Of a DNA stretch of 64,000 nt, positions 1,345 to 33,928 are shown piece by piece. The stretch lies in the NCBI RefSeq assembly GCF_019668485.1, contig NZ_AP024619.1:1-64000 (forward strand). The letters run 5' to 3'. Within the stretch, counting starts at the first letter, position 1. Every line of letters starts with the position of its first letter. The position numbers and the translations under genes were made by a program. Source of the stretch: Gelria sp. Kuro-4. Lineage in GTDB: Bacteria; Bacillota; DTU030; DUMP01. Below the pieces are notes generated by a model. The model did no database searches. It was not told where the DNA came from and saw nothing but the letters and a program-made list of their open reading frames with translations.

Positions 1345-2562
1345 TTACCGGGCAAGGAAGGAAGCCGGAAGGTCCGGGTCGGCAGCCAGGATCCCAACAA
1401 CATCCGGATCCAGGGCACCCGAACGGGCCTGGTGCTCCAGGATGCGCTTCGTTTCGGTCCAGGGAAGGCCGGGGCGGTAGGGACGGTCCTCACTGAGGGC
1501 GGTGAAAACGTCCGCCACGGCAACGATGCGGGCGCCCAGGTCGAGCTCGGGCGCGGCCTTACGAAAGGGGTAGCCCTGGCCGTCCAAGCGTTCGTGGTGG
1601 TAGGCCGCCCATTCAACCAGGGGCCAACCCGCGAGGACGGGCTTGAGAAGCCAGTAGGTGTAGTAGGCGTGCTGCTTGATGGTGTTGAACTCGGCAGCGG
1701 TAAGTCTCCCCGGCTTCTCGAGGATGTCCTCGGGTACGGTAACCTTGCCCAGGTCGTGCAGCAGCCCGGCCGCCTGAAGTAGGTCGCACTGCTCCGGGGG
1801 AAGGCCCGCCTGCCGGCCGAGCCGGCAGGCGGCGGCAGCCACAGCGCGCGAGTGGGTGTAGGTAAAGTGGCTTTTGGCATCCACCACGCGGGCGAAAAGC
1901 CCGGCCAGCTCGAGGAGGTCGGTACCGCCGGCGGTGGACGCCGGGGAAGGAAGAAGTCGTAAGAGGTGCTCACTCAGCCAGGGAGAAGCGAGGTCCAGCC
2001 AAAAGCTCTCGCGCGCGGCCAGATCGTCCAAAAGAGCGACCAGGTCCGGATCGAAGATGGTGCCGGCGCCGGCGCGAACCTGCTCTAAAACAGCGCTGCG
2101 CTGCTCGAGCACCGGAACGCCGGGGCGGAGAAGCACGTCCACCCGGTCCACCAGGTGAATGATGCGGGCCGCCAGGGGGATGCGGTCCTGTGCGCAACCG
2201 GAGGGGTTGCCACCCAGCCAGCGGTCGTGGTGGGAAAGGATGATGGCCGGCGCAGTGCCCAGGCTGTGCACGCCGGCGGCGAATTCGGCCCCGCGGTGAC
2301 AGTGACCGGCGGGGTTCTCCACATCGAACTGGGCCAGGGCCAGCTTTTCGCGGAAGGTGACGGCCCCGGCGTCGTGGATAATGGCAGCCTTAAAGAGCTG
2401 GAGCAGATCCTCCGGGGTGAGGCCGGCAGCCCGACCGACCTCGAGGGCCATAAGGGCCACATGCTGGTGGTGGTTCAAAAGGCCGCCATGCGTGAAATCC
2501 AGGCCGTGCGATAAGCTGAGGAGCAATCTTACAAGGTCAACCCTAAGATCACGCAGGTCCAC
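1345..2562 (-). CDS. HD-GYP domain protein with two HD modules (c-di-GMP phosphodiesterase-like)
   Basis: The C-terminal half is a good HD-GYP domain: HSRAVAAAACRLG, then HDLGKVTVPEDILEKPGRL, then HHERLDGQGYP, then DVFTALSEDRPYR. The N-terminal half is a second, degenerate HD module (NHHQHVALMAL, IIHDAG, LSHHDRWLGGNP). HD-GYP proteins hydrolyse cyclic di-GMP with a bi- or trinuclear metal centre, linking second-messenger level to motility or surface behaviour. The start is placed at GTG 2562 because GAGGAGG lies 9 bases before it; an ATG at 2640 has no ribosome binding site. The protein has 405 residues and no transmembrane segment. It follows rplL on the same strand after a terminator, so it is probably a separate transcription unit. 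Confidence 0.85.
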   Translation of the reverse strand: MDLRDLRVDLVRLLLSLSHGLDFTHGGLLNHHQHVALMALEVGRAAGLTPEDLLQLFKAAIIHDAGAVTFREKLALAQFDVENPAGHCHRGAEFAAGVHSLGTAPAIILSHHDRWLGGNPSGCAQDRIPLAARIIHLVDRVDVLLRPGVPVLEQRSAVLEQVRAGAGTIFDPDLVALLDDLAARESFWLDLASPWLSEHLLRLLPSPASTAGGTDLLELAGLFARVVDAKSHFTYTHSRAVAAAACRLGRQAGLPPEQCDLLQAAGLLHDLGKVTVPEDILEKPGRLTAAEFNTIKQHAYYTYWLLKPVLAGWPLVEWAAYHHERLDGQGYPFRKAAPELDLGARIVAVADVFTALSEDRPYRPGLPWTETKRILEHQARSGALDPDVVGILAADPDLPASFLAR

Positions 2563-3691: not shown

Positions 3692-3860
3692 GAATTCACC
3701 TCCCTCCCCGGGGTAATGGAAGAAGGGGCCTTCCGCCATAGACCGGAAGGCCCCTTCTACTCACCAAGGGGTCCGTCTTCACCTCGGCAGGCGGCATGCG
3801 CCATTAAGCTTAAGCACCTGCTGTCTACGGCTCAACAGGATTATTCGGTTGGCCGGGCCG
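3692..3860 (-). promoter_or_regulatory. L10-type leader of rplJL
   Basis: The 169-base gap between rplA and rplJ contains a perfect 15-bp inverted repeat, AGAAGGGGCCTTCCG and its complement, at 3721-3758 with an 8-base loop, just upstream of the rplJ ribosome binding site. Position and structure fit the L10 leader through which L10(L12)4 autoregulates rplJL in Firmicutes, possibly as an attenuator. The kink-turn element itself was not verified. Confidence 0.6.
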
Positions 3861-4565
3861 CTACTCCTTTACCGGGGCCAGCGGCCGCAGCGGGTTGATG
3901 CGGATGCCGGGGCCCATGCTGGTCGAGAGCGAGACGCTCCTGACGTACTGGCCCTTCGCCGCCGCGGGCTTGGCGCGGATGATGGCATCCATAAGGGCGT
4001 TGTAGTTTTCGACGAGCTGCTCCTTGGTGAAGGAAAGCTTCCCGATGGGCACGTGCACGATACTGGTTTTGTCCACGCGGTACTCCACCTTACCGCGCTG
4101 GATGTCCTTTACCGCCTGGCCGACGTCCATGGTAACAGTGCCGGCTTTGGGGTTCGGCATCAGGCCCTTGGGGCCCAGAATGCGGCCCAGTTTGCCCACC
4201 ACACCCATCATGTCCGGGGTGGCAACGGCCACGTCGAAATCCGTCCAGCCGCCCTGGATTTTCTCGGCGATCTCCTCGGCCCCCACCATGTAGGCGCCGG
4301 CCTCCTCAGCTTCCTTGGCCTTTTCGCCCTTGGCGAAGACGAGGACACGTACCTTTTTGCCCGTACCGTTGGGTAGAACCACAGCGCCGCGGACTTGCTG
4401 GTCCGCGTGGCGGGGATCGACACCCAGGCGGACGGCGACTTCCACTGTCTCGTCAAACTTGGCGGGTTGGAACTGTTTGAGGATGTCAAAGGCTTCAGCG
4501 GCCTCGTACTGACGTCCCTTTTCAATAAGGGCGGCGGCGGCGCGGTAGCGCTTGCCGTGTTTCAT
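3861..4565 (-). CDS. rplA: 50S ribosomal protein L1
   Basis: The 234-residue protein begins [16 protein letters not shown] and shows the L1 signature [15 protein letters not shown] plus [21 protein letters not shown]1 binds 23S rRNA at the L1 stalk and helps release deacylated tRNA; it also binds its own mRNA in many bacteria. It sits between rplK (61 bases upstream) and the rplJ leader in the usual order. Confidence 0.98.
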
Positions 4566-4626
4566 TGGGCATTCCTCCTTGTGGTGTTAGCGGATTGCTC
4601 CTCCCACTGGGCGCTGAAGCGCGCCT

Positions 4627-5052
4627 CTACTTTACAACTTCGATACCCATGCTGCGCGCGGTGCCGGCGATCATGCGCATGGCCGCCTCGACGCTGGCAG
4701 CATTGAGATCCTGCATCTTGAGTTCGGCGATCTCGCGGACCTTGGCCTCGCTCACCTTGCCAACCTTCTTACGGTTCGGCTCGCCGGAGCCGCTCTCCAG
4801 ACCGGCCGCCTTCTTAAGGAGCACCGCCGCCGGCGGGGTCTTGCAGACGAAGGTGAAGGAGCGGTCCTCGTAAATGGTGATCTCGGCCGGGATGATCATC
4901 CCTACCTGGTTGGCCGTCCGGGCGTTGAACTCCTTCACGAAGGCCATAATGTTCACGCCGTGCTGGCCGAGGGCCGGGCCGACCGGCGGCGCCGGGGTGG
5001 CCTTGCCGGCGGGGATTTGCAGCTTAACTATAGCCATAACTTTTTTTGCCAA
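4627..5052 (-). CDS. rplK: 50S ribosomal protein L11
   Basis: The family is recognised from [20 protein letters not shown] and [12 protein letters not shown]. The true start is TTG at 5052 ([16 protein letters not shown]), with AGGAGGTG six bases upstream, giving 141 residues, exactly the normal L11 length. L11 contacts the GTPase-associated centre of 23S rRNA. Confidence 0.98.
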
Positions 5053-5899: not shown

Positions 5900-6049
5900 C
5901 TACTTGGTTTCTCGATGCAGTGTGTGGTGCTTGCAGGTAGGGCAGTACTTCTTAAGCTCCATGCGGCCGGACATGGTCTTTTTGTTCTTCGTGGTGGTAT
6001 AGTTACGCTGCTTGCAGTCGGTGCAAGCCAGGGTTACTGTCACGCGCAC
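5900..6049 (-). CDS. rpmG: 50S ribosomal protein L33
   Basis: This 49-residue protein has the L33 pattern [19 protein letters not shown] and [19 protein letters not shown], with two CxxC zinc-binding pairs, so it is the Cys-containing, zinc-binding form. The start is GTG 6049, with GGAGGTG seven bases upstream. It lies between tuf and secE, the common Firmicute order. Confidence 0.95.
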
Positions 6050-6215: not shown

Positions 6216-7418
<1,203 letters not shown>

Positions 7419-19090: not shown

Positions 19091-19166
19091 TGGAGCCCAT
19101 GACCGGGATTGAACCGGTGACCTCCGCCTTACCAAGGCGACGCTCTACCGACTGAGCTACATGGGC
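19091..19166 (-). tRNA. tRNA-Thr (anticodon GGT)
   Basis: A 76-nt cloverleaf including encoded CCA: acceptor GCCCATG, D-arm AGCTCAGTCGGTAGAGC, anticodon loop TTGGTAA, T-arm CCGGTTCAATCCCGG. Confidence 0.97.
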
Positions 19167-19169
19167 ATT

Positions 19170-19246
<77 letters not shown>

Positions 19247-19257
19247 TTATTCAGTTC

Positions 19258-19343
19258 TGGTGGAGAGGGGTGGATTTGAACCACCGAAGGCATCGCCAGC
19301 AGATTTACAGTCTGCCCCCTTTGGCCAGCTCGGGAACCTCTCC
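19258..19343 (-). tRNA. tRNA-Tyr (anticodon GTA)
   Basis: An 86-nt class II tRNA with encoded CCA, anticodon loop ACTGTAAAT and a long variable arm (GGCGATGCCTTC region). Confidence 0.97.
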
Positions 19344-19401: not shown

Positions 19402-19446
19402 TGGAGCCGACGATGGGACTCGAACCCGCAACCTGCTGATTACAAA
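19402..19446 (-). other. Left attachment site: 3' part of tRNA-Thr (anticodon TGT)
   Basis: On the minus strand this 45-base piece runs from the anticodon loop (TTTGTAATCAGC) through an intact T-arm (GCGGGTTCGAGTCCC) to the acceptor 3' strand and CCA. The 5' half is missing and replaced by unrelated sequence. This is what remains at one end when a phage integrates into the 3' part of a tRNA gene. The restored tRNA-Thr(TGT) should stand at the other end of the prophage, right of the window. Confidence 0.85.
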
Positions 19447-31107: not shown

Positions 31108-31135
31108 CACTGTTTTTGAAACTTCTTGTTGACTA
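31101..31135. repeat. Inverted repeat joining the two divergent -35 boxes
   Basis: TAGTCAACA (31,101-31,109) and TGTTGACTA (31,127-31,135) are exact complements and include both -35 hexamers, so one dimeric protein could block or bridge both promoters. Confidence 0.65.
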
Positions 31136-31157
31136 ACGGTGTTGTGAGTGATATAAT
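31129..31157 (+). promoter_or_regulatory. Consensus promoter for the rightward operon
   Basis: TTGACT (31,129-31,134), 17-base spacer, TATAAT (31,152-31,157). It is the mirror image of the leftward promoter, with the same -35, spacing and -10. Confidence 0.8.
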
Positions 31158-31764: not shown

Positions 31765-32136
31765 ATGACTAGAGACGAATTCCTCACGTTTTTAGATGCC
31801 AAGCTCCAGGAAATTAGAGATAAGTTCAATCGTAAGAATGATTCTTACGGTGTGAGGGATGACGTGTTTCACAACTTCCGGGAAACGGCGCGACGTATTT
31901 ACTCGTCGGAAGGCTCTGAGGCTATGTTCCGAGTATTGTTAACACTGGAAGACAAGCACACAGTGTCTTTATGTAAGAACGGCCTAGCAGACCCTGAAGT
32001 TGAAGACCGTTTGGAGGATAGGGTGGTGTATAACCTGATCGCGTTGGCTATGTGTAAAGAGGCGAAGGAGAGTGCTCATCGGGAACATGAATGGTTTAGA
32101 AAAAATATGTATGGGGTGCCTGCAGAAGCGAGGTAG
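31765..32136 (+). CDS. Phage protein, possibly DUF1599-like (123 aa)
   Basis: The motif KFNRKNDSYGVRDDVFHNFR resembles the K-x-DYG...F.NF pattern of a family linked by others to nucleotide modification in phages (DUF1599/NMAD1). The assignment is tentative. The rest is helical and charged. ATG 31765. Confidence 0.5.
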   Translation: MTRDEFLTFLDAKLQEIRDKFNRKNDSYGVRDDVFHNFRETARRIYSSEGSEAMFRVLLTLEDKHTVSLCKNGLADPEVEDRLEDRVVYNLIALAMCKEAKESAHREHEWFRKNMYGVPAEAR

Positions 32137-32269
32137 GAAGGAATGCAATGTATTCACTAAGCCAGGGGCATGGTTGAATGATGCCGGCGAATGTCCCGCA
32201 AAGATAACCACTGCTGAGCAAATGCGTCAATTGCGTGAGGCAATTGCAGCATACGAAGCGTCATATTGA
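32087..32269 (+). CDS. Small Cys-rich phage protein (60 aa)
   Basis: MNGLEKICMGCLQKRGRKEC followed by one more Cys (GECP) gives a possible zinc knuckle; the C-terminus is helical. It overlaps the preceding gene by 50 bases in another frame. The exact start is uncertain. Function unknown. Confidence 0.5.
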   Translation: MNGLEKICMGCLQKRGRKECNVFTKPGAWLNDAGECPAKITTAEQMRQLREAIAAYEASY

Positions 32270-32281
32270 CTTTGGCGTGAT

Positions 32282-32350
32282 GCTATGGGGGTCAAACTGT
32301 GGCGGTATGCATGCCGTAAGCCATGCGTAGCGACGATAGCATCCCATAGC
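32282..32350 (+). ncRNA. Structured element bracketed by GCTATGGG / CCCATAGC
   Basis: A 69-base segment starts with GCTATGGG and ends with the exact complement CCCATAGC. Inside is GCATG-N8-CATGC. The same outer pair brackets the adjacent tRNA-like element, so the two units stand in tandem with one base between them. No known RNA family recognised. Confidence 0.5.
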
Positions 32351-32351
32351 G

Positions 32352-32451
32352 GCTATGGGGTGGCGGAAGGGTGAGACGCAAGCTACCCGGGCGGCTGTGT
32401 GGGAACTTGAATATACCACACGTGCAGGGTTCGAGTCCTTGCCCCCATAGC
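32352..32451 (+). ncRNA. Class II tRNA-like element 1 with a 9-bp acceptor stem
   Basis: GCTATGGGG pairs over nine bases with CCCCATAGC. TG-GCG-GAAGGGTGAGA-CGC is a good Leu/Ser-type D-arm, TGTGG/CCACA a long variable arm, and GCAGGG-TTCGAGT-CCTTGC a T-arm with a canonical loop. The anticodon arm (AGCTACCCGGGCGGCT) does not fold with a 5-bp stem and 7-base loop, and CCA is not encoded. It is therefore tRNA-like rather than a normal decoding tRNA; a degenerate tRNA-Leu or a new structural RNA are both possible. Confidence 0.6.
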
Positions 32452-32551
32452 GAAACCCGGCCCACTGAAGACGGTAGGAAAGCGTTCAGCGGAACTACTA
32501 GTTACCCGAGGAAAGCATTCGGCGGAACTTGGGTTAAGGTTGGGCTGGGTG

Positions 32552-32638
32552 GTACATAGGGCCACGACCCCGGCGGTGGTGCGCCAATCCGGGCTAGCCT
32601 AACCAGCTAGCAAAAGGCGCTTTAGCGTGGCCCTGTAC
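32552..32638 (+). ncRNA. Nested-stem structured RNA ending in TACAT
   Basis: GTACA/TGTAC (outer), GGGCCACG (32,559-32,566)/CGTGGCCC (32,626-32,633), GCGCC/GGCGC and CTAGC/GCTAG form a nested long hairpin; CCCGG near 32,570 could also pair with CCGGG near 32,590. It lies just before a ribosome binding site (AAGGAGG at 32,648), so it may act as a leader. Positions 32,452-32,551 hold no gene. Confidence 0.55.
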
Positions 32639-32660
32639 ATAACCAATAAGGAGGTTGAGG

Positions 32661-32879
32661 TTGTTGCATAAGGAAGCGGCTAGAATGTTAGCTCCGTTTG
32701 CAACGAATCTTGAAAAATTGAAAGTGGCCTTGGCTTTGCTGGACGAAGTGTACCGCGAAATGGATATCGGTGGGCATAAATTGTGCGCGAATTTAACAGA
32801 CGAAAAGAACGACGAGAAACTAGAGGAATTGATTGAGATATGCAGGAGATTACATCGTTTCCTTCTTGATTTAGTTTAG
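32661..32879 (+). CDS. Small helical phage protein (72 aa)
   Basis: LEKLKVALALLDEVYREMDI and LEELIEICRRLHRFLLDLV are amphipathic helices. TTG 32661 lies six bases after AAGGAGG. It is embedded among structured RNA elements. Function unknown. Confidence 0.5.
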   Translation: MLHKEAARMLAPFATNLEKLKVALALLDEVYREMDIGGHKLCANLTDEKNDEKLEELIEICRRLHRFLLDLV

Positions 32880-32883
32880 TTAT

Positions 32884-32938
32884 GTCCTGCCCCGTTCGCG
32901 AGTGGACTTTGCGCGCCGGTATGCACGGCGGGGAGGAC
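32884..32938 (+). ncRNA. Unrecognised RNA module, copy P1
   Basis: GTCCT-G-CCCCG pairs with CGGGG-AGGAC. The 5' flank CCTGCCCCGTTCGCGAGTGG and the 3' flank ATGCACGGCGGGG closely match those of the longer module at 33,166-33,316, so the two are copies of one RNA type with different inner sequence. Confidence 0.6.
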
Positions 32939-32963
32939 AGTGATTAACCAAAGGAGGGGTTTA

Positions 32964-33155
32964 ATGATGAAGTTGGGAACACAGTTCAAAAAGGTTGTAA
33001 GGGGATTGGCACTTGTTCAGAGTCCTAGAGAAGCACTGGATATTTTGGAACGTCAAGTGAACGAAGGCGGTCCTAATATGACTGTGGCGGAATTAGTCTC
33101 TAATTTAACAGACGACCTTAGCCATTGCCTAGGTTTGGACGAGTTTAAAGCCTAA
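32964..33155 (+). CDS. Small helical phage protein (63 aa)
   Basis: QFKKVVRGLALVQSPREALD and MTVAELVSNLTDDLSHCLGL. ATG 32964 follows AAAGGAGGGG. It shares an SNLTDD/ANLTDE segment with the protein at 32,661, hinting at distant relation. Function unknown. Confidence 0.5.
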   Translation: MMKLGTQFKKVVRGLALVQSPREALDILERQVNEGGPNMTVAELVSNLTDDLSHCLGLDEFKA

Positions 33156-33165
33156 CTAGGCTAAC

Positions 33166-33316
33166 CTGCCCCGTCCGCGATTGGTGGCTGCTAGCTAACA
33201 TGCGGACCAGCTTACCTGGATCGAAACGTAGCGGCGCGCCTTGGCTACGGAGTAGCGATGGTAGGACGCCTCTGTTGGGGATCGCACTTATGCGGTCGTG
33301 ATGAACGGCGGGGCAG
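33166..33316 (+). ncRNA. Unrecognised RNA module, copy P2
   Basis: CTGCCCCG (33,166-33,173) pairs with CGGGGCAG (33,309-33,316). The arms share CCTGCCCCGTyCGCGAkTGG and ATGmACGGCGGGG with copy P1, but the interior is about 95 bases longer and contains further short stems. Confidence 0.6.
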
Positions 33317-33323
33317 ACATATA

Positions 33324-33506
33324 TCAGGGCGGCAGCACGGTGGGGACGTGCGCAATAGCTTGGTATGAGATGCGCCTTCCGCGGGCGCTGCCAGAATACG
33401 CGGGATATGCCCAGCATGGGAGTAATTCTCTGTAGCGGCCCTGGACTTACCTCCAGGGAATGCGCCTAACCAAAGGCAAACCCGGTTCAAATCCGGGACG
33501 CCCTGA
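33324..33506 (+). ncRNA. tRNA-like element 2 with an internal expansion
   Basis: TCAGGGCG (33,324-33,331) pairs with CGCCCTGA (33,499-33,506). A D-like arm (GCAC-GGTGGGGAC-GTGC), a CCCTGG/CCAGGG stem, a GCC/GGC variable-arm-like stem and a perfect T-arm (CCCGG-TTCAAAT-CCGGG) follow. About 85 extra bases separate the D-like arm from the next stem. CCA is not encoded. It cannot be a standard tRNA; it may be a tRNA-like domain of a larger RNA. Confidence 0.55.
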
Positions 33507-33729
33507 CAGATACCTTACAGACACCGGTTGGACACCCTTGTGTTCCGCTGGCCTATAAGGCCCCGGTGCTCCTCCCTGTACTGCCGAGGCTGAGGTGCGG
33601 TGAGGGCAGGTGCAACAGGAAAGAAGACGGCCTGCGTGTAGGCAGTACAACTGGGCGGTCAATCCGTAACGCTGACCGATTTGGTTGGGTAGGCCCATTG
33701 GGCTGAGGATTCACCGCCCATACATACCT
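33507..33729 (+). ncRNA. Multi-stem structured RNA ending in CATACATACC
   Basis: Three closed domains follow one another: a three-way junction closed by CACCGG (33,522-33,527)/CCGGTG (33,563-33,568) with GGACAC and GGCC inner hairpins; TGTACTGCC (33,577)/GGCAGTACA (33,641-33,649); and TGGGCGGT (33,652-33,659)/ACCGCCCA (33,713-33,720). The last base pair runs into the CATACATACC box also seen in early-gene leaders. No open frame is supported in 33,156-33,748. Confidence 0.55.
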
Positions 33730-33748
33730 TCCTAAAGGGGTGTGAAAG

Positions 33749-33928
33749 GTGAGATTTAGGTTGAATTTAATTGCTGAGTACGAGCCTCAACCAGAAGCTT
33801 ACTCTGAAGACATTCGTGATGATCCAAAGAAGATGCTTGAAGAGGACCTTGAGTTTCTTAAAGATGCTCTGTTTGACTTTAACTTTATGACTTACAAAGT
33901 AAGGGGGGAAGTCATATCGGAAGATTGA
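33749..33928 (+). CDS. Small acidic phage protein (59 aa)
   Basis: MRFRLNLIAEYEPQPEAYSE then LEEDLEFLKDALFDFNF. GTG 33749 follows AGGGG by eight bases. No family recognised. Confidence 0.55.
   Translation: MRFRLNLIAEYEPQPEAYSEDIRDDPKKMLEEDLEFLKDALFDFNFMTYKVRGEVISED

Follow-up and report, generated by a model that had tools for sequence, protein, structure and literature searches.

The window analysed here, the first 64,000 nt of a 2.88 Mb genome in one contig, raises at positions 33166-33729 the question of whether a long, gene-free and elaborately folded RNA is encoded there and, if so, what kind of RNA it is. The initial annotation described this interval as a continuous multi-domain fold without a gene, and all of the structures that it named were present, with no plausible gene inside. 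From 33166 to 33728 the order is a long-stem domain, a tRNA-like domain, a three-way junction, a long-range stem and a terminal three-way junction. The structure stood but the boundaries did not, as the orthologous structure starts at about 32280 and a start at 33166 therefore cuts the RNA.

Folding energy alone is modest and mildly unusual. The whole stretch (33160-33735) folded with a z-score of -2.25, two of 100 shuffled sequences being equally stable, and the tRNA-like domain and the window copy of the terminal junction gave z-scores of -3.1 and -3.5, respectively. Since folding energy is only mildly unusual, the case for an RNA rests on comparison. Orthologs of the full RNA were found in two places (n = 2), the window prophage and the IMG/VR contig IMGVR_UViG_3300033998_000199 (genome G061; 51,466 nt; L047 herein), which is colinear with nearly the whole prophage. 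Window positions 33506-33727 (222 nt) are 83% identical to L047, compared with 65-72% for long coding HSPs of the same genome pair, and form the best-conserved long stretch between the prophage and the L047 phage. Substitutions in this segment are spread evenly over the three frames (12/11/11) with no codon periodicity, and single-base indels are located at loops and bulges. Because the substitutions are frame-even and the indels involve single bases, the conserved segment is not protein-coding; protein-coding conservation, the outcome that the initial annotation had held against an RNA, was not found. Compensatory pairs were found in RNA modules (the terminal junction, and M2 versus L047). 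By comparison of the two phage sequences, the folded gene-free RNA is confirmed as real, with conservation as the decisive evidence.

The L047 RNA forms a single block of about 650 nt (about 4186/4229 to 4877), its modules uninterrupted by any plausible gene, and a canonical tRNA-Met gene at 4880 lies directly 3' of it. Aligned to L047, the window RNA starts at about 32280 with M1, followed by a tRNA-Leu-like domain and then M2, and it is split by two small ORFs (32655-32879 and 32940-33155), whereas the block in L047 is continuous. The features are as follows, in window coordinates except for the last.

31129-31157, forward strand: sigma-70-like promoter TTGACT-17-TATAAT, a consensus match only, divergent from an excisionase-like gene.
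32282-32350, forward strand: M1, a hairpin domain at the 5' end with GCTATGGG/CCCATAGC as its closing stem, which repeats the acceptor-stem sequence of TLS1.
32352-32451, forward strand: TLS1, a tRNA-Leu-like domain with GCTATGGGG/CCCCATAGC, the D-arm-like start TGGCGGAA and the T-arm CAGGG TTCGAGT CCTTG.
32476-32529, forward strand: two tandem hairpins with a repeated GGAAAGCRTTCRGCGGAAC, absent from L047.
32559-32633, forward strand: M2, a branched hairpin domain with the closing stem GGGCCACG/CGTGGCCC, two compensatory pairs versus L047 and GTACATA after it.
32884-32938, forward strand: M3 copy A, a hairpin of the form CCCCG..CGC..ATGCACGGCGGGG that immediately precedes the ribosome-binding site for the ORF at 32940.
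33166-33316, forward strand: M3 copy B (P2 of the initial annotation), with the stem CTGCCCCG/CGGGGCAG; the same module lies at L047:4518-4587.
33325-33506, forward strand: TLS2, with the 7-bp acceptor-like stem CAGGGCG/CGCCCTG, a D-arm-like GCAC..GTGC at 33335-33351 and a T-arm at 33481-33497.
33506-33649, forward strand: conserved 3' core, comprising a three-way junction (33522-33568) and a long-range stem.
33577-33585 with 33641-33649, forward strand: the long-range stem TGTACTGCC/GGCAGTACA, part of the conserved 3' core.
33652-33720, forward strand: terminal three-way junction, a probable DUF3800-type module, with the core AAUCCGNAACG - hairpin - UA - hairpin - GAGGAUU.
33719-33728, forward strand: CATACATACC box, which closes the element; (G)TACATA recurs after M2 in the window, and in L047 it stands after M2 and again after the end.
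Genome 65842-65967, reverse strand: TLS3, a compact copy of TLS2 whose end segments are 84% and 96% identical to TLS2.

The RNA locus lies within a prophage of about 55 kb, with attL at about 19.4 kb and attR at about 74.2 kb. At the prophage ends, the tRNA-Thr(TGT) gene (74183-74258) has 40 bp or more of its sequence repeated at window position 19403; an integrase gene adjoins tRNA-Thr, and terminase and genes of structural size lie 3' of the RNA element. The prophage spans window position 19403 to genome position 74228 (about 54.8 kb), and its left end adjoins a tRNA-Thr/Met/Tyr cluster at 19091-19343. Beyond L047, blastn of the region and its pieces against phages and plasmids found nothing real, the short matches (H11-H22) being coding or chance, and five short matches among 399 genomes of the phylum were chance on inspection. 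The M3 motif pattern, scanned against IMG/VR and GTDB, returned about 120 chance matches, mostly in GC-rich genomes, with only L047 real, and other pattern scans of IMG/VR gave L047 and unrelated sequence only. Searches with the terminase and neighbouring proteins reached distant phages only, all of them without the RNA.

Upstream of the RNA, L047 carries a TTGACT-17-TATAAT promoter at 4135-4163 in the same arrangement as the window prophage, and its RNA starts about 65 nt after it. At 32282-32451, the acceptor-stem sequence of TLS1 also occurs in the hairpin on its 5' side (GCTATGGGG ... CCCATAGC. GCTATGGGG ... CCCCCATAGC), which allows two mutually exclusive pairings; RNAfold chooses different alternatives for the window and for L047, and M1 and TLS1 could possibly act as a switch. 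The tandem hairpins at 32476-32529, found only in the window prophage, have near-identical GGAAAGC-RTTC-RGCGGAAC cores. The M3 hairpin module (CCCCG..YCGCRA..AUGCACGGCGGGG) has four copies in the prophage and one in L047, the further prophage copies lying on the minus strand at L008:6240-6306 (copy C) and 5950-6022. These two copies (C and D) and TLS3 make up a second structured region (L008:5820-6310, minus strand) ahead of a small ORF, the product of which is similar by eye to that of the ORF at 33749-33928.

Three elements of the prophage, TLS1, TLS2 and TLS3, have an acceptor stem and a T-arm in tRNA geometry. The tRNA-like domain with a perfect T-arm reported earlier is TLS2 (5 bp/7 nt, CCCGG TTCAAAT CCGGG), and its second copy in the same prophage is TLS3. 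Where an anticodon arm would be, TLS2 has about 150 nt of extra structure; its D-arm-like stem covaries with that of TLS3 (GCAC/GTGC versus GCGT/ATGC, read from the sequence). TLS1 is conserved in L047, in which the tRNA-Leu-type start (TGGCGGAATAGGTAGACGC) and the anticodon-like loop TTTAAGA are kept, a likeness that we presume from established knowledge of tRNA-Leu. TLS2 is missing from L047, and its position is held by another module, X (4594-4656). With tRNA, tmRNA and viral tRNA-like structures these elements have in common the acceptor and T-arm geometry with a D-arm-like hairpin. Unlike tRNA, they fall below detection, with no ARAGORN call and no Rfam tRNA match for any of the three; their tRNA features are limited to acceptor, T-arm and D-arm-like parts, and in TLS2 the anticodon arm is replaced. 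Unlike tmRNA, the locus has no tag ORF and no tmRNA match. A self-cleaving ribozyme or tmRNA identity for the tRNA-like domain found no support in Rfam, and a 27-bit tmRNA match in L047 was its ordinary tRNA-Met.

The terminal junction is the module that led to other genomes. A first covariance model, made from the 3' domain of both phages and searched against 399 genomes of the larger phylum, gave one match, in the genome G343. When the terminal junction alone was modelled together with the G343 sequence (R3), the junction was found in only two other genomes of the 399, G343 and G057. The G343 copy (C1:1671828-1671903, minus strand) had an E-value of 1.1e-12 with R3, which includes its sequence, and of 1.3e-5 with R2, which was built without it, and the G057 copy (C26:2755-2829, minus strand), whose sequence is in no model, had an E-value of 2.9e-9, all of these values being rough and referring to one genome each. 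The 26-genome class of G343 held no further terminal-junction match, and antisense matches of R2 and R3 on the window and L047 were an artefact of the palindromic stem. Over the four sequences, 97.9% of pair cells pair and five pairs change on both sides, counts that lean somewhat to structure because three of the four sequences built the model. The covariation score was reached by none of 500 shuffles, and sliding controls were only 20-52% paired. Among the homologs the core nucleotides are kept and the hairpins vary. The stand-alone copies in G343 and G057, which had no Rfam match, fold with z-scores of -5.7 and -6.7; read from the sequence, TATAAT-like boxes precede them and the closing stem is followed by a U-rich stretch, which fits an RNA of about 90 nt with its own predicted promoter and terminator.

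The G343 and G057 copies each overlap the 3' end of a DUF3800 gene by one or two bases and run antisense to it (G343: gene end L201:1517, RNA 1516-1591, minus strand; G057: gene end L207:1502, RNA 1501-1575, minus strand), and the neighbouring proteins belong to PF12686 (DUF3800), with E-values of 5e-8 and 2e-6, respectively. An XRE-type regulator lies upstream and an ImmA/IrrE gene downstream of the DUF3800 gene and junction at both loci, which are unrelated prophages. At the G343 locus an integrase and a tRNA cluster come next, and since these adjoin it, we consider it the lysogeny region of a prophage.

The host of the window prophage carries a single DUF3800 gene, which lies at 226 kb, distant from the prophage, and encodes a protein with a D-E-S motif and a Q..D motif in common with those of G343 and G057. 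Antisense at the 3' end of this gene (gene end L208:2346) lies the Rfam RNA DUF3800-VIII (2324-2390, minus strand; 58.5 bits versus a cut-off of 40.2). Immediately upstream, and on the strand of that RNA, 63 nt match module X of L047 (74.6%; E = 3e-7 for the loci searched), with 18 pairs holding in both sequences but for one cell and five of them differing by double compensatory changes. Two different modules of phage RNA are found, then, as small RNAs adjoining DUF3800 genes, and one of the two modules forms a tandem with DUF3800-VIII. Two tandem tRNA-Met genes lie about 600 nt upstream of the host DUF3800-VIII RNA on the same strand (genome 225.5-228.1 kb; L208:2250-3300, minus strand).

The terminal-junction homologs in G343 and G057 and the X-type module of the host adjoin PF12686 genes; the window and G061 copies do not. 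DUF3800 genes are absent from the window prophage, the L047 phage and two sister species of the host, and DUF3800 relatives in phage and plasmid records numbered none at E ≤ 1e-3. The Rfam DUF3800 models gave no match at E ≤ 5-10 in window positions 32100-33800, L047 or L201, and none at E ≤ 1 in L207; as a positive control, the search recovered DUF3800-VIII in the host. Since no DUF3800 model matches although VIII is readily found in the host, we regard the terminal junction as an unlisted DUF3800-linked type, distinct from DUF3800-VIII, which accompanies the DUF3800 gene of the host. Among the modules of the window RNA, a DUF3800-linked homolog is known for the terminal junction only; the second DUF3800-linked module is not in the window RNA, because X sits in L047 and TLS2 replaces it here.

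DUF3800 RNA motifs, reportedly introduced by Weinberg et al. in 2017, have been listed since that year. With these RNAs (DUF3800-I, -VIII, -IX and others in Rfam) the phage modules have in common a small, compact form with a long closing stem, the antisense position of the terminal-junction homologs at gene 3' ends, as for VIII in the host, and the occurrence of a module of the L047 RNA in tandem with DUF3800-VIII. They differ in that the phage module is one part of a long composite RNA and no DUF3800 gene lies near it, and DUF3800-VIII is a single stem-loop with an internal loop, whereas the terminal junction is a three-way junction. We consider it very probable that the module is a DUF3800-type RNA, which adds an unlisted DUF3800-linked three-way-junction RNA present in at least two unrelated bacterial families. 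An alignment of M3 with DUF3800-VIII was equalled by eight of 500 shuffles for one copy, and the other copies gave no such signal. M2 was rejected as a relative of the terminal junction; its alignment was suggestive, reached by none of 500 shuffles though as one of about 35 comparisons, but the covariance model gave no support.

Judged from sequence, this locus specifies a noncoding phage RNA of composite build, in which modules that fold separately follow one another in a chain, some of them tRNA-like and at least one in the window, and two in L047, of DUF3800 type. DUF3800 has a reported or predicted RNase H-like fold and is associated with ncRNAs (PMC10910872), and the pseudo-ToxI repeats of phage PhiTE act against ToxIN (PMC3475682). 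Since phages without DUF3800 carry DUF3800-type RNAs and tRNA mimics in one predicted transcript, we prefer the reading that the phage RNA may be a mimic or decoy of DUF3800 systems, to which, by analogy with PhiTE, we give a tentative probability of about 0.4. The RNA would be transcribed during phage expression from the early promoter beside the excisionase-like gene, and the transcript would display several DUF3800-type elements plus tRNA mimics. The modules could then occupy or saturate ribonucleoproteins of DUF3800, a predicted nuclease family of RNase H fold, in the host or a rival prophage, and the phage would be spared, as PhiTE is from ToxIN by pseudo-ToxI. The comparisons establish the modular build, its conservation, the homology of modules, their association with DUF3800 genes and the absence of DUF3800 from the phages; binding of these RNAs by DUF3800, a defensive role of DUF3800 systems and their antagonism by the phage RNA are inferred. 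The analogy is mechanistic, in that noncoding repeats of a phage resemble a host RNA that partners an adjacent protein; it differs in that DUF3800 is not ToxN, that pseudo-ToxI consists of short tandem repeats and the modules here are structured, and that an antitoxin role, as in ToxIN, is only putative for DUF3800 RNAs. DUF3800 modules in a phage RNA without the protein gene may hint at a protein-RNA system contested by phages and hosts.

A broader form of the same idea, which we hold to be possible though somewhat doubtful, is that of a counter-defence array, in which one RNA would concatenate mimics of DUF3800 RNAs and tRNAs, each module neutralising a different ribonucleoprotein defence of host or prophage, with modules exchanged between phages in step with changes in the host repertoire.

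It is unlikely, in our judgement, that the modules are instead cis-acting elements of an early polycistronic mRNA that govern processing, stability and translation, with RNase P and tRNA 3'-end enzymes cutting at the tRNA-like domains to free mono-cistronic mRNAs and long stems shielding the ends. Modules and small ORFs alternate in the window prophage, M3 copies A and C end at most about 25 nt from ribosome-binding sites, and TLS2 and TLS3 stand ahead of small ORFs, all of which such elements would explain. However, the modules in L047 run on for about 650 nt uninterrupted by any ORF, the RNA shows higher conservation than the genes that it would serve, and elsewhere the terminal junction is a self-standing antisense RNA beside DUF3800 genes.

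The initial annotation likened the element to GOLLD and ROOL and suggested a new class of large RNA. GOLLD has a conserved 3' region, a variable 5' region and tRNAs inside or nearby, and occurs in phage genomes (PMC12286853). A structural RNA of this kind, whose 3' core would oligomerise into a particle and whose variable 5' part would carry tRNA or mimic cargo, would by analogy explain the same layout here: a conserved 222-nt 3' segment, tRNA-like 5' modules, partly swapped, and a tRNA-Met directly after the RNA in L047, with a prophage at tRNA-Thr and a 3' core that is 83% identical between the two phages. However, a search of 4,227 Rfam models, GOLLD, ROOL, HEARO and tmRNA among them, gave no match at E ≤ 5. 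No Rfam 15 family was found at the RNA locus at gathering or permissive thresholds, which returned chance matches only, HEARO had no match there, and the GOLLD and ROOL covariance models had none even at E ≤ 5-10. Moreover, the most 3' domain stands alone elsewhere beside a protein gene, and the terminal domain therefore does not need the remaining RNA. The modules are thus separable, unlike GOLLD and ROOL. A particle-forming RNA is quite improbable on this evidence, and the likeness to GOLLD and ROOL holds as an analogy of context. The RNA is large and ornate and has no Rfam family, as suggested, but it is modular, with a terminal junction found alone elsewhere, which lends no support to one isolated giant-RNA class; the nearest known kind is therefore that of the DUF3800-associated RNAs. 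The chaining of small independent RNAs and tRNA mimics suggests how giant, ornate phage RNAs could evolve.

There is little likelihood that the RNA is regulatory and recruits host DUF3800, for example to process phage RNA and free its tRNA-like parts; in favour of this, the host's single DUF3800 gene adjoins two tRNA-Met genes and a two-module RNA, but two sister species are without DUF3800 and the host RNA is of the other type (VIII). Least probable of all are functionless remnants, DUF3800-type RNAs and broken tRNA genes gained by recombination at tRNA or attachment sites, for although the tRNA-like elements have no regular anticodon arms and go undetected by ARAGORN, and the module inventories of the two phages are unlike, compensatory changes keep the structure and no other long stretch is as well conserved between the phages. 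Mimicry of DUF3800 systems is the reading that we retain.

Two further observations concern other parts of the DNA. Degenerate GGTNN pentamer arrays of 10-12 units per run lie on either side of a 193-aa prophage gene (L008:6601-7182), at L008:6497-6546 and 7207-7335 (genome 66496-66545 and 67206-67334, minus strand), and are absent from the L047 phage. Window positions 3710-3848 (minus strand) hold an ordinary L10 ribosomal protein leader, as recognised by Rfam.
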